A stretch of DNA of 43,647 nt from an uncultured Bacilli bacterium (GTDB lineage: Bacteria; Bacillota_I; Bacilli_A; ML615J-28; CAG-698): assembly GCA_947627195.1 (NCBI GenBank), contig CANQVC010000009.1, forward strand, positions 1 through 43,647, read 5' to 3'. Made by a program: the position numbers and the translations under genes. Of this stretch, positions 23,990 through 43,647 are shown piece after piece; position 1 is the first letter of the stretch; every line of letters starts with the position of its first letter. Under the pieces are notes generated by a model. That model had not been told where the DNA came from and made no database searches. It saw only the letters and a list, made by a program, of their open reading frames with translations.

Positions 23990-24018
23990 TTAACATATAA
24001 AACAATAAGTTGTATAAT
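23990..24018 (+). promoter_or_regulatory. sigma-A promoter of the giant lipoprotein gene
   Basis: TTAACA (23990-23995), 17-bp spacer, TATAAT (24013-24018). The leader is about 30 nt with GGGAGGA at 24036-24042. Confidence 0.8.
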
Positions 24019-24053: not shown

Positions 24054-27000
24054 ATGACACGTATGATTAAAAAAGTTTTTGCTATCTTTTTAACATTCAC
24101 TTTTCTATTCCTTGTTGTAGGATGTGATGGAAATAAAGAAAAAGAAGTTAAGAAAACAGTAGAAATTACAATTACAGAAAAGAACACAGTTGAAGTCGGT
24201 GCTCAATCTTTTGATTATACAGAAATGTTTAAGATTACTGTTGATGGGGAAAATTATCCAGTAACAAATGAAATGATTGACGCATCTGATGTTAAATTAG
24301 ACGAAGTAGGTTCATACACTGTTAAATTATCAGCATCTATTGTTGATCGAACAGTAGGCGATAAAGAGTATGAAACAACATATACAAAAGATGCAACTTT
24401 AAATGTTGTTGCAAAAGCTGCAACAGAAAAAGTAGTAGTTATTAATGAAACAAGTGTATCTAAAGAAATTGAAAATGGAGATAATACATTTGATTTTACT
24501 AAATTATTTACTATTACCGTAGATGGAGAAAATGTTACTGTAACAAAAGAAATGATTGATTCATCAAAAGTTCAATTTAATGTTGCAGGAAGTTATGAAG
24601 TAACATTAACATATACAGTAGATGGAAAAGATTATACAAAGACAGTTAATGTTACAGTTAAAGAAAAAGTAGCTACAGAAAAAGTAGTAGTTATTAGTGA
24701 AACAAGTGTATCTAAAGAAATTGAAAATGGAGATAATACATTTGATTTTACTAAATTGTTTACTATTACCGTAGATGGAGAAAATGTTACTGTAACAAAA
24801 GAAATGATTGATTCATCTAAAGTTCAATTTAATGTTGCAGGAAGTTATGAAGTAACATTAACATATACAGTAGATGGAAAAGATTATACTAAGACAATTA
24901 CTGTTACAGTTAAAGCAGAAGAAGTGACTGGAAAAGTTGTTGAATTAGCTGAAACAAGTGTATCTAAAGAAATTGAAAATGGTGATAATACATTTGATTT
25001 CACTAAATTATTTACTATTACAGTAGATGGAGAAAATGTTACTGTAACAAAAGAAATGATTGACATTAGTCTTGTAAGATTTGATGTAGCAAATACATAT
25101 CCTGTTACTTTAAATTATACAGTTGATGGTAAAAATTATACAAAGACAGTTAATGTTACAGTTAAAGCTGGAGCAACAACAGAACAATTACAAGCTTTAA
25201 AAACAGCTTCAGAAAAAAATTATACAAATTATACATTAACAATCCAAATTGATGAAGAAAGTACGGAAGTAATTGAAAGAACAGAAACTATTTTACATGC
25301 TAATTTAGGTTCATATGGCGAAGCATTATTTATTTTACAAAATGGTTCACCTACAAAATATTATAAAAAGAATAGTTCTGATAAATGGGAATTACAAACA
25401 ACATTATTTACAAATCTTTGGACATATACATATGCTCCTTATATGTATGATTTAAAAATAACTCCAACTGATTTTAATTTTAAAGATGATGTTTATACAT
25501 TAAAGAAAATGGCTATTGAAAAATATGAATTTTTAGTAGCACCATATCAAACTGAAACAATTGTTGATATGCAAGTTAAAGTTAATGAAGGTGTTATCAC
25601 TGAAATTGATATTCAAGGTAGTGAATCATCTTACAAGATGTACTTCACAGCTGTTGGCACAACAACAATTGAAGATCCATCAGCATCAGAAGATGCAAAT
25701 AATGAATTTGCGGGAATATATGTTTATATGGGAGTTTATCTTGTAATTAGTAATGATCTTTTTGGTGCTGGTACAGTTAAAAGAATTTCAAGTAAAGAAG
25801 AAGAATTTGATTATGTAATTAAACAAGATGAAAATAACGTAACATATCTTGATGTTAACGATGGCGATTATTCTATCTATAAGAATGCTAAAGGCGTTAC
25901 ATGGACAGATATTTATGGCAGTGATGGTACTGTACAATACACAAAGACAGATAAATTACCAGAACCACAAAAACCGGAAGAGTTACCTGAAAATCCTGAT
26001 AATCTACCATACATTGGAAAATTTGTTTCATATGATACTTCAGGAACTAAAACAAATTTAACTTTATGGACTGATGGTACTGCAAGATACTTTACAAATT
26101 ATATGGGAACATGGAAATTTGATGAAGAAAATCCAAATATTATCCATATCAAATGTAGTGTATTCTCTTATGATGTAACAGTTATACAAGATGGTGTATT
26201 ATTTGCTGTTAATCTAGATCGTCCAGATGATGTAGGAAGTTTAAGAATATTCGTTAGAGAAAATGAACATGAATACCAAGAACAATATTATAAACAAGGT
26301 GTTGCATATCTTACAATTTATAACAATATAATGACATTCATTTATTATGCTAATGGCTATGTTGTTACAACTGAAGATGTTATTGCTCCAGAAGTATATA
26401 TTCATTTATACGATACTGAAGGTAAATTAATTACAGTAGTTCAAAGAGCAAGTAGCTTAAATACTCGTTTAGAGATTATTGAAGCAACTGCAGGAACTTA
26501 CAATAAAGGTGATAGTGTATTAATTATTGATGGATTTGGTAAAGCAACATATAATGGCGAATCTTGTGAATATTATTCAACACCATTTAATCGTGTTGTT
26601 GTAAAAACTAAAGCAGGAAGTGTTGGATTAGCATTAAATGTTGATGAGATGACATTTGAACTTGCTGAACAAGATGGTCACCAAGGTGAATATCGTAATG
26701 ATGGTTCTATTGTAATTACCATTGATGGTTGGGGAGGTATGTTTACTGATCCACAAGATGAAATGTTATCTCCAAGTTTCTATACTTATGTATTAGATGG
26801 TAGAGATTTAACAGCAACAATTGATGGAATTAATCATTATTATACATTTAGATCATATGGTAATGGTCTTGTTAGAAAACAAGATGGAACAGTATGGCAA
26901 AAAACTGGTACACATTATGAAATTGAAGTAGATATAACTCAAACTGATGCTGATACTAATATCCCTTATGGAGATACAAACTTTGATTTCACAAAGTTAT

Positions 27001-30000
27001 TCAATATTTGGGAAGATGGAATGACAAAAACAGTTAAGAAAGAATGGATTGATGTATCTTTAGTTAATTTCACAACTTCAGGTACATATAAAGTAACTCT
27101 TGTCTATAAATGTGCCCAATTAGATGGTCAAGAATTTACTAAAGAAATTGAAGTAACAGTTTTAGCAGAAGGTGAAGTTGTTGATAAAAATGTCATCATT
27201 TCCGAAACTAATGCATCTAAAGAAATTGAAAATGGTGATACAGAATTTGATTTCACAAAATTATTTAAAATTACAGTAGATGGTAAAGATGTTACTGTAA
27301 CAGAAGAAATGATTGATTCATCAAAAGTTAAATTTGATGTTGCAGGTAGTTATGAAGTAACATTAACATATACTGTTGATGAAAAAGAATATACAAAAAC
27401 TATTAGCGTTACAGTAAAAGCAAAAGCTGTTGAAGGCGATATTTCTTTACAAGGTACATATTCTCGTTTAGATTTAACTAGTTATACATTAACTTTATCG
27501 GAAAAGAATGCTGCAACATATAAAGCAGGTAGTACAACTTATGAAGGTACATGGACACAAGATGAACAAACAAAGAAAATTACCATTACTTTAAAAGCTT
27601 CATCTTCTTCTAAAACATTTGAAGTTACAGTTGATGAAAAAGGTATTTTGTTTGCGAAAGATGTTTCATTAAATTCATATTGTTTATTTGTCAAGGGTGC
27701 AACAGATATTAAAACATTAACAATTGGTTCACCTGCTTCAATATATGTTTATGAATTTAATTATAATTCATCAACAATCAAAGTAGCTATGGCAAAAGAG
27801 ACATATTATGGTGAAGTTCAAGCTGATAAAGATTTATTCACTAAAGATAATGTTGTTACTATTACAAAAGATGGTGATGAAATTTGTATTGTGAAAATAT
27901 CTTATGCATCTGATACTTCCGCAACAGGTCAATTACCAACCGAAGAACGTGGTACTTATACATCTGGTGAAGATAGTATCGTAGCTGATGGATTTGGTAC
28001 ATTAACTGGTTCAATTAAAGGTACATATATTGTTGTTAAAGAATATTTCGTTGTTAAAACAACTGAAGGTGAAAAAACATTAAAGATTACTGATAAAACA
28101 TATAGTGTTGTTGAATATGATGGCTTCAGTGGTGATTTCGTTGATAATGAAAATGAAGATGATGTAAAATATACATTAAAATTAAATGGATGTGGAATTG
28201 CTTCAATTGAAAAGAGTTATACATCTCCTACTTATGGTATTTATACAAGTACTGAAGATGCAATTACAATCGTATTTGAAGATCCACAAAGTAGTTTTAG
28301 TGATAAATATGGAACTATTGTATTAACTAAAACACAATTAGGTAATATATTATCAGGTAAAGTTTTAAGTGAAGATGTTACTTTCTATAAAGTTGAAAAA
28401 TATAAAGCATATCTTGAAGTAACAGAAGAATTAGTTCGTTTATTAGATTCTGAAACAGAACATGATTTCAAACAATATTTCAAACTTTCATATAATGGTG
28501 AAAATGTTGAAATAACTGATGAAATGATTAAATCAACAGTTAAATTTGGTGAAGCTGGTTTCTATACAGTTACATTAACTTATACAGTCAATGATGAAAC
28601 ATACACATATGAATTACAAGTTGAAATTTATGTTTTACCATATAAAGATAGTCCAATTGTTGGTAAATATGCAAGAAGTACACATAAATCTAGTGAAGTT
28701 AAATTCCAATATGCTTTAGAATTATTTGCTGATGGAACAGCTGCTGTAACATATGTTTCAGGTACAAGTGTAACAAAATATGAAGGTACATTTGAATATA
28801 ATGATATTAATAAAACTATTAATGTTACAACTTCAAGTGCATCATATCAATATACTGGAACTGTAAAAGATGGTGTTTTATTAGTACATAAAACTTCTTC
28901 ATCTAGTACATATAGCGATTATTATTGCTTTATAAAAGATGCTACATTAGATACAGTTTATACTGGAACAGATTCATACATGAATAAATTTACAGTAAAT
29001 GATGAAACAGTTTATATCTTACAAGATAATACAACCCAATATGGAGTTGTTGAAGTTGAAGGAGATATTGCTGCAGGACAAATGGTAAGTTTAAAACAAA
29101 ATGGTGTTGAAATTAAATTAGTTAAATTTACTTCAGCTACAGCTTATACATTATCATCTGCTGAAAAAAATACATATAAAGTAGGTGAAGAATCATTTAC
29201 TTTAGATGGATTTGGAACATATACAAGTGATTCTAAAAATGGTACATATAAAGTAATTAGTAATAAAATTTTAGTTGAAACTGAAGATGAAATGTTAGTT
29301 TATACAATTGATATTGCTGCAAAAACTGCAACAGTTGTAGAGAAAGATCAATTTGAAGGTATTTATTATCATGATTCTACTGGAGCATATAATATGGCAT
29401 ACTTTAATTTCACAGGTTATGGTATATTAATATTCAATAGAGCAAATAATTTAGCAACAAGTTCTCAATATGTCATTGGTACATATACAGTAGAAGGTAA
29501 TAAACTTACTACTTTAGATGCTAAAGGTAATTCATACGAAATGGAAATTGGCGAAAATAAACTTACTGTTACTAAAGAAATTAAATCAGATTTTTATGTA
29601 TCAGAAGGTTGGGAATTCGTAAAAATTAGTCCTGTTGTTGAAATTAAAGATTCTGATACAGCAGATAAAATTAAACAAAATGATACATCATTTGATTACA
29701 AATCATTATTTGTTGTAAGTGTTAAAGAAGATGAAAAAGCAACAGCAACAAATTATAAAGGAACTGGTTTAGCTAGTGCTATTATTGATTCATCAGCTGT
29801 TCAAGTTGATAAACTTGGAACATATCAAGTAACAATTACTATTTATGTATTTGGTCAAAAATTTACTGGTTCAAGAGAAGTAGAAGTAGTTGATCCATCA
29901 ACTAAGATTGTTAATGTTGCGGAAACTGATGTTGCTAAAGAAGTTTCTGGTAGTACTACATCATTTGATTTTAAGACTTTATTTAAAATTACAGTTGATG

Positions 30001-30623
30001 GTGAAGATGTTGAAATAACTGATGATATGATTAATGCTGAAGCTGTTCAATTTGGTAAAGCAGGAACATACGATGTTACATTAACTTATGAATTTGAAGA
30101 AAAAACTTATACAAAAACTATTAAATTCACTGTAAAAGAAAAAGAAGTTGTTATTACTGAAACTGATGCTTCCAAAAATATTCAATATGGTGATACTGAA
30201 TTTAATTTCACAAAGTTATTCCAAATTACAGTTGATGGTAAAAATGTCCCTGTTCAAGCTGAATGGATTAACACTGAATTAGTTCAATTTACAACTGAAG
30301 GTAAATATAATGTCACTTTAACTTATACAGTTGATGATAAACCATATGAATGTACAGTTGAAGTAAATGTATTAAAAGAAGGAGAGTCAACAAACAAATT
30401 TGTTGGTACATATAAACAAGGCTCTAATACTATTATTATTACCGAAGATAAAATAACATATGAAGGTCATACTTATACATATGAAATGTCTTCAGATGGT
30501 AATAAACTTACTTTCACTGATTATATTGATGATGATTATGACGTAACTTTAAGTGCTGATGGTAATACATTAACTTTAACTTGTTACGGAGATTCAGAAA
30601 AATACACACGTGTTACAGAGTAA
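24054..30623 (+). CDS. Giant modular surface lipoprotein with Ig-like repeats
   Basis: A 2189-aa predicted lipoprotein: basic start, hydrophobic core and lipobox VVGC with Cys24. About ten Ig-like repeats of 75-85 residues are seen, each with an FDFTKLF-ITVDG-EMID-pattern and ending in a YEVTLTYTVDGK-type strand pair. They lie at about residues 36-120, 126-203, 210-287, 294-371, 955-1040, 1042-1125, 1447-1532, 1859-1946, 1951-2030 and 2031-2109. Between them are one LolA/LppX-like module (about 375-545) and three beta-rich modules of about 300 residues (about 650-954, 1131-1446 and 1533-1858). Each of the three carries a GTY...DGFG signature. A small beta domain ends the protein. There is no LPXTG or C-terminal membrane span, so lipid is the only anchor seen. 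A role in adhesion or binding is inference from architecture. Confidence 0.88.
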   Translation: MTRMIKKVFAIFLTFTFLFLVVGCDGNKEKEVKKTVEITITEKNTVEVGAQSFDYTEMFKITVDGENYPVTNEMIDASDVKLDEVGSYTVKLSASIVDRTVGDKEYETTYTKDATLNVVAKAATEKVVVINETSVSKEIENGDNTFDFTKLFTITVDGENVTVTKEMIDSSKVQFNVAGSYEVTLTYTVDGKDYTKTVNVTVKEKVATEKVVVISETSVSKEIENGDNTFDFTKLFTITVDGENVTVTKEMIDSSKVQFNVAGSYEVTLTYTVDGKDYTKTITVTVKAEEVTGKVVELAETSVSKEIENGDNTFDFTKLFTITVDGENVTVTKEMIDISLVRFDVANTYPVTLNYTVDGKNYTKTVNVTVKAGATTEQLQALKTASEKNYTNYTLTIQIDEESTEVIERTETILHANLGSYGEALFILQNGSPTKYYKKNSSDKWELQTTLFTNLWTYTYAPYMYDLKITPTDFNFKDDVYTLKKMAIEKYEFLVAPYQTETIVDMQVKVNEGVITEIDIQGSESSYKMYFTAVGTTTIEDPSASEDANNEFAGIYVYMGVYLVISNDLFGAGTVKRISSKEEEFDYVIKQDENNVTYLDVNDGDYSIYKNAKGVTWTDIYGSDGTVQYTKTDKLPEPQKPEELPENPDNLPYIGKFVSYDTSGTKTNLTLWTDGTARYFTNYMGTWKFDEENPNIIHIKCSVFSYDVTVIQDGVLFAVNLDRPDDVGSLRIFVRENEHEYQEQYYKQGVAYLTIYNNIMTFIYYANGYVVTTEDVIAPEVYIHLYDTEGKLITVVQRASSLNTRLEIIEATAGTYNKGDSVLIIDGFGKATYNGESCEYYSTPFNRVVVKTKAGSVGLALNVDEMTFELAEQDGHQGEYRNDGSIVITIDGWGGMFTDPQDEMLSPSFYTYVLDGRDLTATIDGINHYYTFRSYGNGLVRKQDGTVWQKTGTHYEIEVDITQTDADTNIPYGDTNFDFTKLFNIWEDGMTKTVKKEWIDVSLVNFTTSGTYKVTLVYKCAQLDGQEFTKEIEVTVLAEGEVVDKNVIISETNASKEIENGDTEFDFTKLFKITVDGKDVTVTEEMIDSSKVKFDVAGSYEVTLTYTVDEKEYTKTISVTVKAKAVEGDISLQGTYSRLDLTSYTLTLSEKNAATYKAGSTTYEGTWTQDEQTKKITITLKASSSSKTFEVTVDEKGILFAKDVSLNSYCLFVKGATDIKTLTIGSPASIYVYEFNYNSSTIKVAMAKETYYGEVQADKDLFTKDNVVTITKDGDEICIVKISYASDTSATGQLPTEERGTYTSGEDSIVADGFGTLTGSIKGTYIVVKEYFVVKTTEGEKTLKITDKTYSVVEYDGFSGDFVDNENEDDVKYTLKLNGCGIASIEKSYTSPTYGIYTSTEDAITIVFEDPQSSFSDKYGTIVLTKTQLGNILSGKVLSEDVTFYKVEKYKAYLEVTEELVRLLDSETEHDFKQYFKLSYNGENVEITDEMIKSTVKFGEAGFYTVTLTYTVNDETYTYELQVEIYVLPYKDSPIVGKYARSTHKSSEVKFQYALELFADGTAAVTYVSGTSVTKYEGTFEYNDINKTINVTTSSASYQYTGTVKDGVLLVHKTSSSSTYSDYYCFIKDATLDTVYTGTDSYMNKFTVNDETVYILQDNTTQYGVVEVEGDIAAGQMVSLKQNGVEIKLVKFTSATAYTLSSAEKNTYKVGEESFTLDGFGTYTSDSKNGTYKVISNKILVETEDEMLVYTIDIAAKTATVVEKDQFEGIYYHDSTGAYNMAYFNFTGYGILIFNRANNLATSSQYVIGTYTVEGNKLTTLDAKGNSYEMEIGENKLTVTKEIKSDFYVSEGWEFVKISPVVEIKDSDTADKIKQNDTSFDYKSLFVVSVKEDEKATATNYKGTGLASAIIDSSAVQVDKLGTYQVTITIYVFGQKFTGSREVEVVDPSTKIVNVAETDVAKEVSGSTTSFDFKTLFKITVDGEDVEITDDMINAEAVQFGKAGTYDVTLTYEFEEKTYTKTIKFTVKEKEVVITETDASKNIQYGDTEFNFTKLFQITVDGKNVPVQAEWINTELVQFTTEGKYNVTLTYTVDDKPYECTVEVNVLKEGESTNKFVGTYKQGSNTIIITEDKITYEGHTYTYEMSSDGNKLTFTDYIDDDYDVTLSADGNTLTLTCYGDSEKYTRVTE
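24429..25163 (+). repeat. Three tandem Ig-like repeats with exact 252-bp period
   Basis: Copies begin at 24429, 24681 and 24933. Copies 1 and 2 differ at only about a dozen positions in the first 220 bp, including synonymous sites, so they arose by recent duplication or gene conversion. Copy 3 is close for its first 150 bp and then diverges. Such arrays can change copy number by slippage or recombination. Confidence 0.9.
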
Positions 30624-30627
30624 AATT

Positions 30628-30661
30628 AATTGGGATAGTGACAAGTACTATCCCAATTTTT
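30628..30661 (+). terminator. Hairpin terminator between the two giant lipoprotein genes
   Basis: Perfect 12-bp stem (30628-30639 with 30647-30658), 7-nt loop and only a short T run (30657-30661). No convincing promoter lies between it and the next gene, so partial read-through is likely. Confidence 0.75.
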
Positions 30662-30695: not shown

Positions 30696-33600
30696 ATGAA
30701 AAAATTGCAAAAAATTGTCCTACTATGCTTATGTTTCTTAGTTGCATTTATATTAGTAGCATGTGATAAAACATCTGTGAAAATAACCCAAACAGATGAA
30801 GCAACAACAGTATATGTAGGTGATGAAGTTAATCCAAGTAAGTATTTTAAAATAGAAGTAAATGAAGAAGAAATACCTGTTACTATGGATATGATTGAAG
30901 GAACTGTTGATACAACTAAACCAGGTAATTATACAATTAAATGTAGTTATGTTTATAAAGAAAAAACATATGATTTAAGTATAAATATTGAAGTTATAGC
31001 TAAAGAAGTTGTTGATAAAGTGGAAATAACTCAAACAACTCAATCGACAACCCTAGAATATGGATCAGATGTTCCTCCTCTAACAAATTATTTCCAAATT
31101 AAAATTAATGATGCTGTTGTACCAACAACACTTGATATGATAACAGGAACTGTTGATACAAATGTAGTTGGTGATCATGTTATAACATGTACTTTTGAAT
31201 ATCAAGGACAAACATATAAATTAGATGTAAAAATTACAGTTTTAGCACCTGTTGTCTTAGATACTGTTGAAGTGGGTGGAACTGATATTAGTTTTTATGT
31301 TGAAGAAAATATTACATCAACTACTTTATTACAATTATTAAAAGAAGCATTTTTTATTAAAGTAAATGACACTAATGTAACAATTGAAGATAATATGATT
31401 GATTCATCAAAAGTATTATCAACAACACCAGGTGTTTATCAAGCAACATTAACATATGTTCATCAAGATGTTACTTATAAAAAAACAATTCAAGTTGTTG
31501 TTGTTGATGGATTGACAGCTTTAAGAACTGCATTAGTTCAACCATATACAAATTATTCATTAAAAATAGAACATAATGGTGAAAATACAATTAGTTTTTA
31601 TCGTAATCTTGTGAAAACAATTGAAGATGATGAAACAGTATATTATGGTTATGATCGTATAGATGATGATTATTATAAATTAGTTCCATATAAAGATAAT
31701 TATCGTCGTACAAATATTGATAATGGTGATTTATATAATTACTATACATCAATTATTGCTTTAGATGCTAATGATTTTGAATTTGTATCGGAAGGTAATT
31801 ATAAAGTAAAAGAATCTTCATTAGTTTCCGTTTTAAACAAATTATTAAATGTTGATGGAAGTGAATATACCAATATATCTATTACTTTAAGTATGGATCA
31901 AATTGTTAATGAAATCACTGTTTCATATGAAGAAAATGGTGCAAAACAAACATTTGTAATTTCTGTTATTAATTATAATAAAAGCAATTTTGAAGTAAAT
32001 GTTGTTGATATTGATTTTAATGATTTTCTTCCAACATTAGATGATGAAACTAATAGAAGAGGTAATACAAGTATTGAAGGATTAGACAATGCTTTTGCTC
32101 ATTCATATGATAATATGAAAATAACAGGAAGTATTGATTTAATCAACAAATATGATCATGATTATACAGAATTAGAATATATTAAAACACCAACTGTATG
32201 TAAAACGACATATAATGGTTTTAGTTATATTCGTACATGGGATGCTCAAGCAAATGCTTATTTAACAGTTCCAATGGAAAATGGTAGTGAAGATTATGAT
32301 TTCTATAGTGAAGATGAATTAGAAAGATATTTATTATCTTTAGAATTAAGTACATTATTACAATTAAATTCTAATTATTTCGAAGTAGGTGAAGATGGTT
32401 ATTTTATTCCTATTGAAGGATATGAATTAGCAATTCTTTATGTTGTTTTTGGTCATTTCTTTTATTACACAACAGGAATTGATTTTGGTCAAATTCCTGA
32501 AGCAAACATTTCCTGTGAAGGAATAAAATTAAAAGTTTATAATGATTGTTTTTATCATATAGCAGGTAGATTTAAATATGTTGATGAAACTGGTGAAGAA
32601 CTTTATGCAACAATGAAATTTGAAATACGTGATATTGATAAATGTGAACTTGAAATGCCTGATACATCATATGTAACATCAATTGATCGTGCTTTTGCTT
32701 TCCTAGGTTATACTAATAGATTTGGTTTAACTTATAGATCTGAAAAACAAAATAAATCATATAAACTTAATATGAATGTTCAAAATGGATTAATTGAATA
32801 TCAATATAAAGAACATCCAGCATATTTAGCTTCACAATATATTCAATATAATAACCAATTATATTTAGTATATATTCGTCAATATGTTAATGATTTTGGT
32901 TATTGGGATGAAGAAATAGAAGTAAGAGATGTTTTTAATTTAGGTGTACCAAATATCCAAATGAGCTTCAAATTTAGGGATGAAAATAATAATTTAATAC
33001 GTTATTCTAATGCATTCACATATAACCAAACAGCTAAGTTATATGAATGTAAAAAAGAATATATTAGTTATGTAGCTAATTCATTAATTGGTGGGTATAT
33101 TGTAACAGGTGATAGACAAGCTGAAAGATTTGGTTCATATACTTCAATATTATTATCATTAAATGAAAATAGAGTTGAATATATTGAATTTACAGGTAAA
33201 GATGTTGATGGTGTTAATGATTTAACAGTCCGTCTTGAATTTAAACCTTTAACTGAATTTACTATGCCAAGCTTATATTCTCATTGGAATTATGAAGTTC
33301 CCGGATTAGATGCCCAATCTGATACAGAAGGTAGTCAAAGTCTTGAAGATTTAGATAAAGCATTCCAAGCACCAATGGATAATGTTGCCGTAGATTGTTA
33401 TGAAGCATACAGTACATTTATCAATGATATTGATGAAGGTACTGAAACAGATTATGAAAGAAATAGATATTATTATGAAGTTTGTCAAGATGAAATCTAT
33501 TCTTATAATCCAGCAACTGGTGAAGAAGTAATATCATGTTATGTACCATCAATGAATTTATATTATATATTAAACTTTAGATGGATTGATATTGGTTTCC

Positions 33601-35207
33601 ATGCAATAATGACTCCAAGTAGAGCTCAACAATATCGTTATAGTGTTAATACTGATTTTAGTAAATATAAGAGTGAAAATTTTGAAGCTAAAGATGGTTA
33701 TTTTGTACCTAAAGCAGGTTACATGGAAACATTTGCTACTAGTTTCTTTGGTGAATTAGGTTATTATGATTTCTATGTTGTTACTGTTGAAGATGTAAAA
33801 CTTAAAGTAGTTAACCAAAGAGTTGAGTATGTTGGTGTTAGATTTAACCAAGTATTTAGTATGGGTGGAACTACTATTACTAATAAATGGCAAGTTGAAT
33901 ATTTCTTTAGTGATTATGGACAAATAGAACATTATGGTCTTAATGCAATAGTAGATCCATTAGATCTTGCTTTATTTGAAAAGACAAAAGATGGATTCTA
34001 TTCAATGAATTATCAAATTACTAAAGGTGATCAAACAGAATCAATCATGATTTATAATGATGATTATTTATCTTCAGAAGAATCTGTTTATTATAGAAAA
34101 TACGTAATGCCTGATGGTAAAATTTATTATTTGACACCAAATGGCTTTATGGGTGAAGTTAATGGGGCATATAAATATATGCAAGAATCATTTGTTTCAA
34201 TTCCATTACCATACCATAATTTATTCAACCATGAAGTTGTAAGTAACATGGATGTATTCTTTAGTATGTTCTTTGAATATGATGAAAAAACAGGATGTTA
34301 TGAATGTCTTCCTGATTGGAAATCGACAGTATTTGCTTTCTTCTTTGGTGGATATCTTGTATTTAATGGACAATGTATTGAAATAACTACGGATGATGAA
34401 GATTTATTTACAAGATTTGCTTTCCGTTTAGATGAAGCTGGTCATATAGCAGAAGTTATTGTTCAATTTGATGATTATGATTTAACAATCTCTTTTGGTA
34501 AAGGTGAAGTATTTACAGTACCAACAGATGGTTCTTTAGTTGATGGTACAGAACGTCCTCCACTAGATGATATGAATAAAGAAGAAGGAACAGTTGAACA
34601 AGAAGCGTTAGAAAAAGCTATTGAAGATTTATTTAATAATTATTCATATACATTACAATGCTATGCAGATTCACCAATTGGTGAAGAACTATATACAGTA
34701 AGTTATACTATTGATGGTAATATTGCTCGTGTAGATCTTATGGAAGGTGAAAATGTAACAACATATTACATTGAATATTTAGGAAAAGATGAAAAGAATA
34801 TTGATATGTTTAATGTATATGTTGAAGATGAAAATGGTATTTGGATAAAAGAAAATGGTTCATTAGAAGAATTAATGGATGCAATGATTATCGATTATTT
34901 TGATATTAAATCATTAAAGATTAATATGTTAGAACCAGGTAATGATGGATATTTTGTTGTAAAGAAAGAATATAGATCACAATTATTCTGTGAAATGTTT
35001 GGTTATGATCCAATGGAAGGATTATTAACTTATGATGTTACTACTTTCAAAATCAAAGTTGTAAACAATAAAATTGTAAGTGTAATTGTGGCAGTTGAAA
35101 TTAAATCAAGTCCTGTATATGGCATTAGTTATTATGTATCATATAGTGTATTATTAAATAACTATAATGAAAATGATTTAACTTTACCAAATGTTACAGA
35201 AGAATAA
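30696..35207 (+). CDS. Large modular surface lipoprotein with Ig-like and six LolA-like modules
   Basis: A 1503-aa predicted lipoprotein with lipobox LVAC (Cys23). Three Ig-like repeats at about residues 28-103, 108-184 and 189-270 belong to the same family as those of the preceding protein. Then come six diverged modules of about 180-200 residues: about 272-447, 459-655, 661-858, 883-1088, 1089-1276 and 1301-1500. Most open with a helix-like LDxAF-xxYxN pattern. Most contain a GYF-type motif (DGYFIPIEGY, DGYFVPKAGY, DGYFVVKKEY) followed by a KLKV-N strand. Most end in a short MPS/LPT/VPT-type linker. The pattern of long antiparallel strands suggests the LolA/LppX half-barrel fold that binds lipid or hydrophobic ligands. 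That fold call is inference. Function unknown. Confidence 0.87.
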   Translation: MKKLQKIVLLCLCFLVAFILVACDKTSVKITQTDEATTVYVGDEVNPSKYFKIEVNEEEIPVTMDMIEGTVDTTKPGNYTIKCSYVYKEKTYDLSINIEVIAKEVVDKVEITQTTQSTTLEYGSDVPPLTNYFQIKINDAVVPTTLDMITGTVDTNVVGDHVITCTFEYQGQTYKLDVKITVLAPVVLDTVEVGGTDISFYVEENITSTTLLQLLKEAFFIKVNDTNVTIEDNMIDSSKVLSTTPGVYQATLTYVHQDVTYKKTIQVVVVDGLTALRTALVQPYTNYSLKIEHNGENTISFYRNLVKTIEDDETVYYGYDRIDDDYYKLVPYKDNYRRTNIDNGDLYNYYTSIIALDANDFEFVSEGNYKVKESSLVSVLNKLLNVDGSEYTNISITLSMDQIVNEITVSYEENGAKQTFVISVINYNKSNFEVNVVDIDFNDFLPTLDDETNRRGNTSIEGLDNAFAHSYDNMKITGSIDLINKYDHDYTELEYIKTPTVCKTTYNGFSYIRTWDAQANAYLTVPMENGSEDYDFYSEDELERYLLSLELSTLLQLNSNYFEVGEDGYFIPIEGYELAILYVVFGHFFYYTTGIDFGQIPEANISCEGIKLKVYNDCFYHIAGRFKYVDETGEELYATMKFEIRDIDKCELEMPDTSYVTSIDRAFAFLGYTNRFGLTYRSEKQNKSYKLNMNVQNGLIEYQYKEHPAYLASQYIQYNNQLYLVYIRQYVNDFGYWDEEIEVRDVFNLGVPNIQMSFKFRDENNNLIRYSNAFTYNQTAKLYECKKEYISYVANSLIGGYIVTGDRQAERFGSYTSILLSLNENRVEYIEFTGKDVDGVNDLTVRLEFKPLTEFTMPSLYSHWNYEVPGLDAQSDTEGSQSLEDLDKAFQAPMDNVAVDCYEAYSTFINDIDEGTETDYERNRYYYEVCQDEIYSYNPATGEEVISCYVPSMNLYYILNFRWIDIGFHAIMTPSRAQQYRYSVNTDFSKYKSENFEAKDGYFVPKAGYMETFATSFFGELGYYDFYVVTVEDVKLKVVNQRVEYVGVRFNQVFSMGGTTITNKWQVEYFFSDYGQIEHYGLNAIVDPLDLALFEKTKDGFYSMNYQITKGDQTESIMIYNDDYLSSEESVYYRKYVMPDGKIYYLTPNGFMGEVNGAYKYMQESFVSIPLPYHNLFNHEVVSNMDVFFSMFFEYDEKTGCYECLPDWKSTVFAFFFGGYLVFNGQCIEITTDDEDLFTRFAFRLDEAGHIAEVIVQFDDYDLTISFGKGEVFTVPTDGSLVDGTERPPLDDMNKEEGTVEQEALEKAIEDLFNNYSYTLQCYADSPIGEELYTVSYTIDGNIARVDLMEGENVTTYYIEYLGKDEKNIDMFNVYVEDENGIWIKENGSLEELMDAMIIDYFDIKSLKINMLEPGNDGYFVVKKEYRSQLFCEMFGYDPMEGLLTYDVTTFKIKVVNNKIVSVIVAVEIKSSPVYGISYYVSYSVLLNNYNENDLTLPNVTEE

Positions 35208-37612: not shown

Positions 37613-38149
37613 ATGAATTGGCTTCCAAGTTGGGTTATTGACCATGCCGACGAATTGGCAAAATTAGCATTTGTAGTAATGATATTAATAGTTATTGTAT
37701 CAATGATTTTTTTGTTTTTTGCTTTTTGCGTAATTTGTAAAAAAATTTTTAATTTAATAAAAAATTTTTCTAATTATGTAAAATCGAAATACACACCAAA
37801 ACCTCAAAAACTAAAACCTACGAAAATTGATGGACAGTTAAAAAATATTGGTAATGGTATTCTTGAAACATTAAGTTATATTGAGAGTGCTAGAGAAATT
37901 GCAAGTGATTGTGCTAATTCTGAAATAATTAAAACTTCAATTGACAATATAGAAATTCATTTGCTAAAGTATCTTGATAGTTATACACCTTTAGAAAATG
38001 AAAAATTTGATTTTAATACGATGGAATTTGAACCAAAAGCTAATAACGGAGAGTTAGTTAAAAAAACTATTACGCCAGGGAAAAAAATAGGTAATTTAAT
38101 TATCAAAAAGGCTTTGGTCGAATTAAAGGATGGTGAAGTAAATGAATAA
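37613..38149 (+). CDS. Membrane-anchored GrpE-like protein
   Basis: This 178-aa protein has a membrane span at about residues 17-42, a basic Pro/Lys linker (about 57-72), a helical segment (about 78-122) and a small beta-like end (about 125-171). The last two resemble GrpE in order and pattern. ILETLSYIESAREIA sits where GrpE has LLPVLDNLERAL. An acidic turn is followed by FDFNTMEFEP, like the GrpE FDP-H-AV strand. The terminal PGKKIGNLIIKKALVEL resembles GYKLxDRVLRPAxVxV. GrpE proteins release ADP from Hsp70. The gene overlaps an Hsp70-like gene by 8 bp, which strongly supports a matched pair. Similarity is weak, so the call rests on pattern plus context. An AGAGG ribosome site precedes the ATG. 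Confidence 0.6.
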   Translation: MNWLPSWVIDHADELAKLAFVVMILIVIVSMIFLFFAFCVICKKIFNLIKNFSNYVKSKYTPKPQKLKPTKIDGQLKNIGNGILETLSYIESAREIASDCANSEIIKTSIDNIEIHLLKYLDSYTPLENEKFDFNTMEFEPKANNGELVKKTITPGKKIGNLIIKKALVELKDGEVNE

Positions 38150-40214
38150 ACTTGTAATTGGTTTAGATATTGGAACACAGTTTTGTTATGCTGGATATTT
38201 GATTAAAGATGGAAAAGGTGGATTTAAAAGCAAATTTAAACCTGCTTTTGATGCTGAAAACAATAAGTTAGGCATTCCATCTTTAATCATTGTTGACAAA
38301 GATAATCCTAAAAATTTATATGCAGGAATTGAAGCTTATGACCTATTAAAAAGTCATCCAGATAAATATGTTTCTATGAGTGAATCATTCAAAACTTTTG
38401 TGTTAAACAATTGTGACATTGATTCTAAAATTTATCCTTTTGATGATTTAGATGAAGCATATAAAGTTAAGGAAATATTAAATGTATTAATGAGTGCACT
38501 AAATGCAACTATAAAAAAATATCTTGACAATGATTCTAATTTGAGTGATGGTTATAACATTGAAGAAATACATTTTGCTTGTCCAAATTTAAGTCAAAAA
38601 GACGACATTAATGATGAAAGCACACTTAATAAGTATATTGAAACGTTAAGACATGTAATTGAATGTGCATTTGGTTCAACCGTTGATATTTCTGTTCATT
38701 TAGAAGGATTATTTGGTATTGAACTCGTAACAGCCCTTTTAGGGAAAAAATCTAATGAATATACAAATATTATTACTATAGATATTGGTGCTGGCACAAC
38801 TGATAATGCTATTTCAGTGAATAGTACAGCTCATGAAAGTAGTAAAAAAAATGATATGGACGTAATATGTCTCAATTCTGCTTATTTTGGTGCCCAAAAT
38901 ATTGATGAAATAATAGTAAATTCAGCAAATAATATCAAAGGTGGAAATAATTATGATTATTTAAAAAAGAATCCTTATGCTATTTGCAATATAAAAAAAT
39001 GGTTATTTGAGTCGGGTAATGTTGACGATAAAATTGATTCTAGATTAGAAGAAAATAAATCATATTTAAAAAGCGCAGTAATAAATGAAATGAATATAAT
39101 GGATAATTTTAGAAATTATGAACATATGATTGATAATATATCACAAAAATTATGTAAAATTAAAAATGATAATTCAAGTTTTTTAGTGGTACTTTTAGGT
39201 GGGACATCTAGAATTTCGTTTCTGAAGGATGAAATAGAAAATAACTTTAAAAAAAAGCATTTAAAATTCAAAATAAAATATTTATATGAACTTGTTGATG
39301 AAACTCATCACCAAGACATAAATGATGCAAACTTCATGGCTTATGCAGCAGCACATAATAATACATATCCTAAATGTTTCTCTCGTTCAGCACCAAAAGC
39401 AAAAATAGAAACAAAATTCATATCTGTTATTCAAAGAGTTGGAGCGCCTAATATAATTGCTGTAAAACTTGTAGGTGGTAACTATGCAATTATTGCATCA
39501 CCTGACCCCGAAGGAAACCCATATTTTTTAACAAAAGATGCTTATCGTTCCGTGAATGTAAGGGAGGAAGATGATAAAGAAGTGAAAACGTACCCTCCAA
39601 CATTTGATTTAAAATCCGTATTGTACTATTTCAGTACTAATGAAACTATTCCAGATGACACAACAGAACTTAAACCATTTAGCGAAAAATCTAGTATGTA
39701 TACTTGTATTCCAAGTAAGACAAATATTACTTGCTTAACTCGACATAATTTAACATCATATATTGGTGAAAAGAAAAAACTTCCTAGAAATAATGTTATA
39801 TGTCGCTATATTGGCTCTTTCTACAATTACGATCCTTCTATAAGTTTAGATAAAGCTTTAGAGATTATGACATATAATAACGATACATTAAAAGGTAATT
39901 ATGGAAATATTCCTATAGAACATCAATTAAAATATGATGAATTAAGAGATAAAATCAATCAAATCAATCAAAATAAAATAAAAGAAAAACAATTTGATGT
40001 AAATAGAAATAATCAAAGCACACCTTATAACATTTCAGTTAGTTTAGCTGTTCTCTTTGCCGTTATTTGTTTATGTGCTGGTATACCAATATATATTTCG
40101 GGTTATAAGTTACCAGGAACAATAATTTTCTGCATATTTACAACAGCATTTTTGTTGATTGGTGGTTATGCTATTTATTTGCGCTTTTCTCATAAAACAG
40201 ATAAAGTAAATTAA
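38142..40214 (+). CDS. Hsp70-family ATPase with C-terminal membrane hairpin
   Basis: This 690-aa protein has an actin/Hsp70-type nucleotide-binding domain. Phosphate-1 is GLDIGTQFCYAGY (about residues 7-19), phosphate-2 ITIDIGAGTTDNAI (about 211-224) and the adenosine motif VLLGGTSRISF (about 350-360). The region after about 400 is beta-rich but does not look like the DnaK substrate-binding domain, and the EEVD/acidic tail is missing. Two membrane spans at about 632-652 and 658-681 end the protein, so the ATPase faces the cytosol on a membrane hairpin. The GrpE-like partner gene overlaps its start. The N-terminal sequence is clearly Hsp70-like but far from DnaK. Substrate and purpose are unknown. 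Confidence 0.85.
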   Translation: MNKLVIGLDIGTQFCYAGYLIKDGKGGFKSKFKPAFDAENNKLGIPSLIIVDKDNPKNLYAGIEAYDLLKSHPDKYVSMSESFKTFVLNNCDIDSKIYPFDDLDEAYKVKEILNVLMSALNATIKKYLDNDSNLSDGYNIEEIHFACPNLSQKDDINDESTLNKYIETLRHVIECAFGSTVDISVHLEGLFGIELVTALLGKKSNEYTNIITIDIGAGTTDNAISVNSTAHESSKKNDMDVICLNSAYFGAQNIDEIIVNSANNIKGGNNYDYLKKNPYAICNIKKWLFESGNVDDKIDSRLEENKSYLKSAVINEMNIMDNFRNYEHMIDNISQKLCKIKNDNSSFLVVLLGGTSRISFLKDEIENNFKKKHLKFKIKYLYELVDETHHQDINDANFMAYAAAHNNTYPKCFSRSAPKAKIETKFISVIQRVGAPNIIAVKLVGGNYAIIASPDPEGNPYFLTKDAYRSVNVREEDDKEVKTYPPTFDLKSVLYYFSTNETIPDDTTELKPFSEKSSMYTCIPSKTNITCLTRHNLTSYIGEKKKLPRNNVICRYIGSFYNYDPSISLDKALEIMTYNNDTLKGNYGNIPIEHQLKYDELRDKINQINQNKIKEKQFDVNRNNQSTPYNISVSLAVLFAVICLCAGIPIYISGYKLPGTIIFCIFTTAFLLIGGYAIYLRFSHKTDKVN

Positions 40215-41037: not shown

Positions 41038-41047
41038 GTGGTAAAAT
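41019..41047 (+). promoter_or_regulatory. sigma-A promoter of the secreted protein gene at 41083
   Basis: TTAACA (41019-41024), 17-bp spacer and extended -10 TGGTAAAAT (41039-41047). The leader carries AAAGGAG at 41071-41077. Confidence 0.75.
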
Positions 41048-41082
41048 ATATAATGTATTATTATGTAATGAAAGGAGATTCT

Positions 41083-43647
41083 ATGAAGAAAAAATTACTG
41101 CATTTAGTCATAACTGTTTTGATTTTATCTACTTCATTAGGTGCACTTTTATCCGCAAATGAAGAAACTTCAAACCCTTATGACGGTAATGGCACTACTT
41201 TATTAGAACGACCTTCTTCGGGAAGCCCAAAAGATTATTCTGCTTTAGATAATATTGCAATAGCTTCATGGGTAGTCAAACATGCTGAAAGTTTTGAATC
41301 TCATACCGAAGGTGCCGTAGATGCTTCGATAGAAAACCAGTCAATTACTGGACGGAGGAAAATAATTGGTAATGACATGGTAAAAGAAGCAATAAGCTTA
41401 GGTTCTTTTAAAAGTATTGCAAAACAGTTTTTCTTACATGATAGTAAAGCTTTTTATCGTGACTCTTCTAAAGTAAACGCCTCAGATGATGTTGTTTGGA
41501 AAAACAATGTTAGTATATATACAAAAGATGATTTTTATGAACAACATGGTATTGACCCAAGGGCGATGACAAGCTATATTATCAATAAAGATACTGTTAT
41601 AGGTGAACCAGTTGTTCTTGATGAGAATCCAGAAAATTATACAGTTGAACTAGATTTGGATCCAAATGTAGCTCCATTTTATTATCGCAAAGAAATGAAA
41701 TTAGTTTCAGGATTATCTAGTTATCCGAATTTTAAATCAATTCACATGAGAATCTGTATGAATGAACGCTGGGAAGTAAAAGAAATATATTATGTTGCAA
41801 ATTATAGCATTAAAATGTTAATATCATTAGATTGTGAAGAAGAGGTTACAGAAAAATTTACTTTTGGTGTTAATACTGAAATAGAAGAAAAACCTTTTTA
41901 TCAACAATTCTATAATGAAGATGTTAGTGGTAATCAACCTGAAGAAAAAGATGCTTTAACATATTTAGAAGAAGCATTATTACCAATGTTAGCAACTAAA
42001 TCTAATTTTGATGTTAATTTGAAATATAAAGATTTTGAAGAAAATGGTTCAATTGAATTTAAAGCTGATGTAATGAGTATTATAAAAACTATGCAAACAG
42101 GTGGTATGGAAGTTACCCAAGAATTCCTAAAGAATATATTATTAAATGGAAAATTTGGTGATTGTACATATTTATCATTGCAAGATGGTATTTTATATTT
42201 CACATATGATGCTTATAAATATCGTTTAGACGTTAGTGAATTAATTAACTTATTTGATATTGATTTATCACAATTAGGTGATTTAACATCTTTATTAGGT
42301 AATATGGATACTTCATCATTCAATATGGATTTAGTAAAAAATGAACAAAATGTTACTATCCAATTAGAAGTATCTGGTTGTCACATTGAATTAAGAATGA
42401 TTGAGGTTGATTCAACTGCCTCATTAACAGGAATATTTATTAAATATAATGATTTAGAAGTAACATTAACTAAAACAAATAGTGAAATTGTTATGCCAAC
42501 AATTGATGATTCATATGTTGATTTAACTGATGCTAAATGGCTTTATCCAACAATTAAACAATTAATTGAAGCTAAGTCTTATCAAATTGATTTAAATATG
42601 TATTATCAAGATATTAATATTGTTGGAAAAGCAAAAATTGATAAGGATAATGATGTTTCTATTAATTTACAATTAATGCTTCCTGAAGTCATTGAATTGG
42701 AAGTTAGAATTGTTAATAAAGAAATATATTTAATATATAAAGATTCTATTTATCATGTTAATCCAAATGAATTAGATTCTATATCAACATTCTTAAAAGA
42801 GCAATTAAAAGATAACTTAAAAGATTTTGATATAGCAAGTATATTAAATGTTTTTGGTGGTATTACAGCTGCTAATAATAAAATTGAAATTTTATTATTA
42901 TTAAGTGCATTAACAATTAATAATAATGAATTATCAGATACAAAAGTTACTATAGAACATGTATCAGATAATAGTATTATTGTTAGTGTTGATTCTCTTG
43001 CTTTTGTTCATATTTATGATTGTGATGAACTAGATGTTGTAATTCCAAATGGGGAAATCATTGAATTTACAGATAATGTTCTAACTCTTTTTGAAACTAT
43101 TCCAAGTATCAAAGAAATAATTGAATCAAAAGGATTAGAAGGTGAATTCAATACACAAATTATTTACCAAGATTATGTAATTGATGTTAATGGTAAAATT
43201 ATATGTTCATTTGATACCAAAGAATTATATGTTCTATTATCATTAACTTATCAAGAACAAACATATAATATTAAAGCAATATTAAACGAAAAAGGATGTA
43301 AAATTGCAATTGGTCAAGAAGTTATTGAATTAACTTATAATGAATTAAATGAACTTATAAGTTCTATTGAAAAGTTAACAGGAACTAAATTAGATATTCC
43401 TGAAAAATCAATTAATGATTATCTTGATATGATTGATGCATTTACATTTAATGATGGTAAATTAGAAGTTGTTATTTTATTAGATCAAAGTAGAAAAATT
43501 ATTGTTAATTTAGATTTGAATGATCAAATTAAAATTGATATAGATTTAAAAGATCTAATCAAAGACAAAGTAGAAATAAGTCCAATAACAATAGAAATAA
43601 AAGGTAAAGAAAATACAATCGAAGAAGTAGAAGCAAGTACAATCACA
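41083..43647 (+). CDS. Large secreted protein with LolA/LppX-like modules (3' end outside window)
   Basis: The reading frame is open for 855 codons from ATG 41083 to the last base, so the gene is cut by the window end. It has a classical signal peptide: MKKKLLH, a hydrophobic core, and likely cleavage after LLSA near residue 25. There is no lipobox Cys, so it is exported rather than lipidated, unlike the two giant proteins upstream. I see about four modules with long alternating strands, at about residues 50-275, 286-475, 484-655 and 662 onward. The middle ones end in VMPTIDD- and VIPNGE-type linkers like those of the 1503-aa lipoprotein. The first 230 or so codons use many GC-rich codons that are rare in the rest. 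Function unknown. Confidence 0.85.
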   Translation, partial: MKKKLLHLVITVLILSTSLGALLSANEETSNPYDGNGTTLLERPSSGSPKDYSALDNIAIASWVVKHAESFESHTEGAVDASIENQSITGRRKIIGNDMVKEAISLGSFKSIAKQFFLHDSKAFYRDSSKVNASDDVVWKNNVSIYTKDDFYEQHGIDPRAMTSYIINKDTVIGEPVVLDENPENYTVELDLDPNVAPFYYRKEMKLVSGLSSYPNFKSIHMRICMNERWEVKEIYYVANYSIKMLISLDCEEEVTEKFTFGVNTEIEEKPFYQQFYNEDVSGNQPEEKDALTYLEEALLPMLATKSNFDVNLKYKDFEENGSIEFKADVMSIIKTMQTGGMEVTQEFLKNILLNGKFGDCTYLSLQDGILYFTYDAYKYRLDVSELINLFDIDLSQLGDLTSLLGNMDTSSFNMDLVKNEQNVTIQLEVSGCHIELRMIEVDSTASLTGIFIKYNDLEVTLTKTNSEIVMPTIDDSYVDLTDAKWLYPTIKQLIEAKSYQIDLNMYYQDINIVGKAKIDKDNDVSINLQLMLPEVIELEVRIVNKEIYLIYKDSIYHVNPNELDSISTFLKEQLKDNLKDFDIASILNVFGGITAANNKIEILLLLSALTINNNELSDTKVTIEHVSDNSIIVSVDSLAFVHIYDCDELDVVIPNGEIIEFTDNVLTLFETIPSIKEIIESKGLEGEFNTQIIYQDYVIDVNGKIICSFDTKELYVLLSLTYQEQTYNIKAILNEKGCKIAIGQEVIELTYNELNELISSIEKLTGTKLDIPEKSINDYLDMIDAFTFNDGKLEVVILLDQSRKIIVNLDLNDQIKIDIDLKDLIKDKVEISPITIEIKGKENTIEEVEASTIT

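Follow-up and report, generated by a model that had tools for sequence, protein, structure and literature searches.

Here, we describe a predicted lipoprotein of 1503 residues encoded by an open reading frame (ORF) at positions 30696-35207 (+) of contig CANQVC010000009.1 (assembly GCA_947627195.1) from an uncultured Bacilli bacterium of the family CAG-698; the whole stretch analysed, 43,647 nucleotides, is referred to as the window. A signal peptide with a lipobox is followed by three immunoglobulin (Ig)-like units (residues 27-270) and then by 1233 residues that make up six modules, M1-M6, the last of which clearly has an LprG/LppX-like fold in a structural model. We regard the domain arrangement as new and assign it to a diverged sequence clade within the known LolA/LprG fold superfamily, and we lean towards a reading in which a lipid-anchored Ig stalk carries six LolA/LprG-type beta-clams that would hold hydrophobic ligands on one arm.

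Architecture of the protein

The features of the protein are as follows.

30696..30764 (+): signal peptide and lipobox LVAC, Cys23 (translation inspected by eye; the ortholog has LLVAC at the same site)
30774..30998 (+): Ig-like unit 1 (I1), residues 27-101 (hhalign; Pfam Big_3 E 0.008, under cut-off)
31017..31244 (+): Ig-like unit 2 (I2), residues 108-183 (hhalign among units)
31257..31505 (+): Ig-like unit 3 (I3), residues 188-270 (hhalign among units)
31506..32033 (+): module M1, residues 271-446, resembling a module of the upstream lipoprotein (profile scores)
32064..32663 (+): module M2, residues 457-656, even subtype (M2-M4 hhalign; low-confidence model)
32667..33293 (+): module M3, residues 658-866, odd subtype (M3-M5 score; B-type match)
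33327..33944 (+): module M4, residues 878-1083, even subtype (M2-M4 and M4-M6 hhalign; model)
33945..34526 (+): module M5, residues 1084-1277, odd subtype (M3-M5; model mostly at low confidence)
34587..35204 (+): module M6, residues 1298-1503, even subtype, predicted LprG-like fold (AlphaFold2, VIA-align, Foldseek)

The signal peptide with its lipobox would place the protein at the cell surface. The Ig-like units are related to one another (hhalign probability 99.7% for I1-I2, 89.8% for I1-I3 and 89.3% for I2-I3), bearing out the three Ig-like repeats that an earlier reading, made from the sequence alone (the sequence-only reading), had placed ahead of the modules. The Pfam model Big_3 (PF07523) scored 16.9 bits on these N-terminal units against a gathering cut-off of 21.2. 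Over the modules, scans with Pfam, NCBIfam and PHROG returned nothing above cut-off. Neither the whole protein nor any single module matched LppX_LprAFG (PF07161) at E up to 10, and Pfam scans of the protein and its modules gave no MCE model within the same limit. PF07161 was also absent from the scan of the window's genome, a result of little weight since 14 control genomes gave none either. A viral-contig scan gave no match.

Predicted fold of the modules

We modelled residues 866-1503 with AlphaFold2 from a four-row alignment, of which two rows extend over M6. The mean predicted local distance difference test score (pLDDT) of this model was 54.9, and the mean of the block pLDDTs for M6 was ∼70. 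M6 is predicted to open with a helix and six strands, which the lid helices separate from two strands, a further helix and three final strands. Its 11 strands equal the count given, in an excerpt of PMC6363788, for the core shared by EPDR1, VioE and LolA, which belong to superfamily CATH 2.50.20. VIA-align placed M6 on LprG (3mh9) with Z 11.2 and a root-mean-square deviation (rmsd) of 3.8 over 170 aligned residues. The top six rows were all LprG, LprF or LppX (LprG Z 11.2, 10.7, 10.5 and 10.4; LprF 10.9; LppX 9.4), followed by EPD-BCP1 (8.6), LolA (8.1) and, further down, RseB (7.2) and intimin and invasin barrels (6.2-6.8). Foldseek also retrieved LprG (3mh9_C, E 1.5e-3, probability 0.99); it ranked BFA1 (E 7.7e-5) and two TbpB chains above LprG, in alignments that span most of the model with an rmsd of 26-27 Å. 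In the model, M6 clearly has an LprG/LppX-like fold. The M4-M6 model gave no match to viral structures at E ≤ 0.001.

The M4 model has 11 strands, as in M6, with low confidence in its first half. M5 lies mostly at pLDDT <50 and has five strands after the last helix (two extra, short) versus three in M6. A second model, covering residues 262-866, was poor (mean pLDDT 40.2) and had fewer strands in M1 and M2; M1 had block pLDDTs of about 22-47 and no confident structure. For M2, modelled with low confidence, the first four rows were LprG at Z 6.0-6.2, values that can arise by chance. The weak M3 model has the same helix/strand order as M6 and picked BFA1 at Z 5.3 and LolA at Z 4.5, for which chance is again possible; unrelated factor-H-binding proteins reach Z 4.3 in this poor second model, near the LolA value of M3. 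M1, M4 and M5 lie outside the listed structure-comparison rows, which are uninformative on their folds. The helix/strand order is broadly alike among the modules in the models, and it is from this order and from sequence homology that M1, M4 and M5 appear to be members. The sequence-only reading had proposed tandem, strongly diverged LolA/LppX-like modules, to be checked by AlphaFold and Foldseek: the check matched M6 to LprG and yielded low-confidence models elsewhere, so that the proposal is supported for the fold of M6 and, through profile homology that runs partly by way of intermediates, probably extends to the others.

The sequence-level repeat unit is two modules

The M2-M3 pair can be aligned colinearly with the M4-M5 pair, with a score of 128 (shuffles 46.5 ± 7.5, 0 of 500 as high). 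When the profile of the whole region was compared with itself, a shift of ∼420 brought 633 columns into alignment (E 3.3e-11), with the linkers before M2, M4 and M6 included. Because of this colinearity and this shift, we conclude that the repeat unit at the sequence level is two modules, with M2, M4 and M6 of one subtype (the even set) and M3 and M5 of another. Smith-Waterman scores against shuffled sequences agree with this division (M2-M4, z 9.7, 0/500; M3-M5, z 4.2, 2/500; M4-M6, z 3.4, 4/500; M2-M6, z 3.1, 4/500), as do hhalign comparisons of two-sequence profiles (M2-M4, E 7.6e-7; M4-M6, 6.2e-6; M2-M6, 0.0038; M3-M5, 0.0047), in which no remaining module pair fell below 0.04.

The short motifs are distributed in a similar manner. 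At the start, M2 and M4 match LDxAF exactly and M1, M3, M5 and M6 only loosely; DGYF and K(L/I)KV occur in M2, M4 and M6 only, M6 being without the PxxGY part; M3 and M5 carry (L/C)YECxx(E/D)(Y/W), and M1 carries GNYKVK. An MP/VP/LP end is found in M2, M3, M5 and M6 and just beyond the M1 border, and is absent from M4. The self-comparison that the sequence-only reading had suggested did recover a repeat. Of the unit of about 200 residues that it counted six times, the six modules stand, at 176-209 residues within borders that we placed, while the sequence period is two modules; of its aligned starts, centres and ends, the exact start in M2 and M4 and the end in most modules stand, while the centre motifs are confined to the even modules.

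Two-module lipoproteins tie the subtypes together

The window's genome also encodes a paralog, L020 (911 residues in the stretch covered), with Ig-like units and two modules, which we termed A and B. We built A-B alignments of 9 and 14 rows from loci including L040-L048 and compared the halves with the modules. A and B are related to each other (E 3.4e-6 with 14 rows, 5.7e-4 with 9 rows). B matched M3 and M5 together (E 1.6e-6 over 171 columns with 9 rows; 0.0025 with 14 rows), and A matched M1 combined with the module of the upstream neighbour (3.5e-7 with 9 rows; 1.7e-6 with 14 rows) and M1 by itself (7.7e-6). B also matched M1 (1.8e-5 and 2.9e-5 with 9 and 14 rows, respectively). Matches to the even set were weaker for A (2.6e-4 with 9 rows; 8.7e-4 with 14 rows) and reached E 1.9e-4 (14 rows) and 0.025 (9 rows) for B; the even set in turn matched M1 combined with the upstream neighbour's module at E 7.8e-6.

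As a control, we shuffled columns 150 times in each of 12 comparisons chosen for an earlier signal, and 11 of the 12 scored above every shuffle and above their own reversed control. The scores and the shuffle maxima were 43.7 versus 16.8 for A-B, 48.7 versus 20.2 for A against M1 with the upstream neighbour's module, 46.4 versus 20.4 for B against M3 with M5, and 41.3 versus 17.5 for the even set against M1 with the upstream neighbour's module. M1 scored 40.5 with the A-type profile (maximum 20.2) and 38.7 with the B-type profile (maximum 20.4). M3-M5 scored 24.8 (0/150 as high), and the M2-M6 score of 25.3 was equalled by 1 of 150 shuffles (a weak control). On these profile comparisons, the deeper profiles with relatives from other genomes tie the subtypes together, the tie between even and odd modules running through the A-B proteins.

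Across the module region, the best alignment of the 9-row A-B profile covered M5 and the latter half of M4 (257 columns, E 4.9e-5), favouring a phase in which A-B corresponds to even-odd. We do not claim this phase, because M1 is compatible with A as well as with B, B fits the even set in the 14-row comparison, and the 14-row A-B profile matched the protein in shorter pieces only (best E 4.1e-4).

We also searched PDB sequences by profile and obtained nothing convincing: the two-ortholog alignment had no match, the A-type alignment reached E 0.41, and the B-type alignment had a best E of 0.012, to a proteasome subunit. None of the nine A-B loci scanned matched a Pfam or NCBIfam model at its cut-off; by eye, loci L040-L048 encode lipoproteins with two module-sized regions, several with a Ser/Thr-rich linker. 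The nearest curated family was NF041193 (SP0191 family lipoprotein), whose match in L042 scored 29.5 bits (cut-off 75; E 6.7e-7) and fell in part on the signal and linker; it might connect these proteins to a family that has a name. Separately, we noted by eye that short repeats of the IGTYKG...ITINGT kind close the two-module lipoproteins at L029, L030, L031, L034 and L040, which come from this genus and from others.

Conservation and distribution

An ortholog of 1498 residues is encoded in another genome of the genus (G002; locus L018); it is 62% identical overall and 63% identical over the module region. Identities at codon positions 1, 2 and 3 were 0.70, 0.80 and 0.60, respectively, and therefore indicate selection on the protein. 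Individual modules are 56-78% identical to their counterparts, M2 being the most conserved, and the Ig-like units 51-63%.

The six-module region was found in 2 of 28 family genomes and in 3 of 395 class genomes; the third, G156 (E 9.4e-4), is spurious, its 343-residue ORF having been judged unrelated by eye and dropped. Even modules were found in 2 of 43 order genomes. Their profile matched 8 of 395 class genomes, namely the two of the genus and six that we dropped. In five of the latter, the ORFs were read by eye as an enolase, a U32-type peptidase, an unclear protein and, twice, one 219-residue protein; the sixth (G116, E 0.0093) was dropped with its ORF unread. The 219-residue protein, at L056 and L059, is membrane-anchored and matches the even profile weakly (E 0.007-0.009), which we treated as noise. 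A scan of GTDB contigs with two short peptide patterns returned L018 only. The six-module protein is seen only in the window's genus, in two genomes.

The two-module relatives reach further. The B module was found in 7 of 43 order genomes at E ≤ 0.1, both genus genomes included; the matches outside the genus comprise three strong ones (4.8e-18 to 1.6e-15) and two doubtful ones (0.01 and 0.04). The A-type profile matched 21 of 395 class genomes at E ≤ 0.01, a count that includes five used to build the profile and several weaker matches that are short and doubtful.

Gene neighbourhood

Four further features lie upstream of the six-module gene.

23990..24018 (+): sigma-A-like promoter TTAACA, 17, TATAAT ahead of the gene pair (consensus match; no commoner than in shuffles)
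24054..30623 (+): upstream giant lipoprotein, 2189 residues, a conserved neighbour (ORF; ortholog in L018)
25173..25679 (+): single M1-like module of the giant lipoprotein, residues 374-542 (Smith-Waterman, hhalign)
30628..30658 (.): hairpin of 12 pairs in the gap that separates the two lipoprotein genes, resembling a terminator on the minus strand alone

The giant lipoprotein has many Ig-like units and other internal repeats in self-hhalign, with InlK_D3 just above cut-off, and may also carry short repeats of the IGTYKG...ITINGT type. Its single module resembles M1 (Smith-Waterman z 3.7, 2/500 shuffles) and the 9-row A-type modules (hhalign E 5.2e-5). The ortholog in L018 has 2037 residues at 55% identity, and the order there, sigG, giant lipoprotein, six-module protein, is that of the window.

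Directly before the pair are a spoIIGA match (37 bits, far under cut-off), sigE (306 versus 339 bits) and sigG (above cut-off); farther upstream are topA, ffh, ruvB, tgt, ftsW, murG, murB and ftsZ. The gene sigG was found in 19 of 43 order genomes (E ≤ 1e-80), 17 of them outside the genus. We fetched 10 of these 17 flanks and read nine by eye for ORF starts (G009, with <1 kb, was omitted, and G025 offered only 1.9 kb); in none of the nine was the pair directly behind sigG. For this reason, the pair seems to have been added at the sigG site in this genus, and the sporulation link prompted by sigG was set aside, there being no conserved tie.

Downstream, 38142-40214 encodes a 690-residue protein with Hsp70/actin-type ATPase motifs (GLDIGT and DIGAGTTD) and C-terminal membrane segments (by eye), for which we obtained no convincing NCBIfam match. 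The ORF at 41038-43647 has an N-terminal signal-like stretch and is truncated by the contig end (870 residues present); it gave no family match, and its homolog in G002 lies in a frame of 1710 residues that contains an internal repeat (second match at 26%). That it is another clam array was plausible by eye and gained no support from the profiles. The last 25 residues of this ORF recur at G000:C14:3-77, so the window's contig may join another. Elsewhere in the same genome, locus L019 (3292-7824 and 8074-12000) has a 1510-residue Ig-like lipoprotein beside a subtilisin-like protein (GTSMACPN by eye).

Proposed function and alternatives

We picture a lipid-anchored extracytoplasmic protein in which an Ig-like stalk would be followed by beta-clams ordered M1-(M2-M3)-(M4-M5)-M6, M1-M5 presumably being clams like M6. 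The array may have grown by duplication of a two-module unit, a similar pair occurring singly in smaller lipoproteins of related Bacilli. Because of the fold and the lipid anchor, some or all of the clams could bind hydrophobic ligands: each, or a subset, would accommodate an acyl chain or a different greasy molecule, and several binding sites on a membrane-tethered arm could serve ligand capture at the cell surface or passage along the arm. The sequence-only reading had already suggested a surface array with a putative role in handling lipids or glycans. LprG has a hydrophobic pocket in crystal structures and moves triacylglycerides between vesicles, according to an excerpt of PMC10576003.

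Several points weigh against this proposal. We found no ligand or partner, none having been tested for, and among the neighbours scanned, the named ones are housekeeping, cell-wall and sporulation genes with no lipid-metabolism gene. A usable model exists for M6 alone, and M1, M4 and M5 are unmatched to solved structures; even and odd modules compared directly give an unsupported E of 0.023, and A against B with the smallest profiles (five rows) is not significant (E 0.031). Some diverged modules may have lost any binding. Moreover, two further members of the superfamily, RseB and VioE, act in different ways, as stated in the excerpt of PMC6363788.

The chief rival is that the modules are structural only, forming a long beta-rich arm of Ig units and emptied clams that would present or space out something on the cell surface, in the manner of an adhesin or of a scaffold spanning the wall, and leave its ligand pockets unused. 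This is possible, and we hold it tentatively as the second choice: the stalk has Ig-like units, the upstream neighbour is likewise a giant repeat lipoprotein, the modules diverge strongly from one another, and lipid genes are lacking among the scanned neighbours. However, M6 is nearest to LprG, LprF and LppX rather than to adhesins, the intimin and invasin barrels reaching only Z 6.2-6.8, and the second species keeps all six modules, at identities that in M2 exceed those of the Ig units.

A more specific form of the ligand-holding proposal seems unlikely to us, namely a single-chain relay in a single-membrane cell, in which a lipid or lipid-linked sugar would pass from clam to clam from the membrane to the surface. 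Domains of these kinds measure 4-5 nm each, and by our estimate the stalk plus all six clams, arranged end to end, would span a thick wall.

It is slightly more doubtful still that only M2, M4 and M6 are beta-clams, alternating with other beta-rich domains in M3, M5 and perhaps M1. The lack of a direct sequence signal between M3/M5 and the even set, the low-confidence models of M3 and M5 and the five strands after the last helix in M5 speak for this arrangement. On the other hand, M3 and M5 connect to the 9-row B profile and the 14-row B profile to A, while A connects to M1 and, more weakly, to the even set, and the weak M3 model is ordered as M6 and picks BFA1 and LolA. Least probable of all is an envelope sensor or regulator with an RseB-style LolA-like domain, perhaps tied to sporulation since the pair follows sigG; RseB is among the structural matches and the pair sits directly behind the spoIIGA, sigE and sigG matches, but RseB ranks under LprG, LprF, LppX and LolA, a sigma-A-like promoter match lies ahead of the pair, and the pair is behind sigG in 0 of 9 other order genomes.

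Comparison with known systems

Most known proteins with the LolA/LprG fold have a single module and come from bacteria that possess either a second membrane or a mycomembrane; Bacilli generally have one membrane. Open-licence PMC papers, searched for tandem LolA-, LppX- or LprG-like proteins, yielded no description of the present architecture, in keeping with the sequence-only reading, which knew of none. The mycobacterial LprG, LprF and LppX are likewise lipoproteins with a beta-clam fold (Z 11.2, 10.9 and 9.4 to the M6 model); unlike the protein described here, which has six modules behind Ig-like units, comes from Bacilli and has no PF07161 match, each of them matches one module, at 8-10% identity. 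LolA and LolB belong to the same superfamily (LolA aligns with M6 at Z up to 8.1, a weaker match than that of LprG) but are single-domain carriers, described in the excerpt of PMC6363788 as carrying lipoproteins between two membranes. Also close are the two-module Bacilli lipoproteins (e.g., L020, L042 and L043), which have a related module pair and a lipobox, B matching M3/M5 and A matching M1 and, more weakly, the even set; they differ in having two modules, not six, and several have a Ser/Thr-rich linker (by eye). Together, these proteins would form a diverged clade of the LolA/LprG fold, represented by two-module lipoproteins in several Bacilli and, in a single genus, by the array of six.

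If the clams bind lipids, the array would point to extracytoplasmic lipid handling in single-membrane bacteria and to a lipid-binding domain in tandem array outside the MCE family. A comparable tandem array is LetB, described in an excerpt of PMC12436622 as a stack of seven MCE domains that handles lipids as a homo-hexamer bridging two membranes; MCE is another domain, and Pfam finds none in the six-module protein. Should the relay hold, clam-to-clam transfer would be akin to that of LetB in double-membrane cells, on a different fold.

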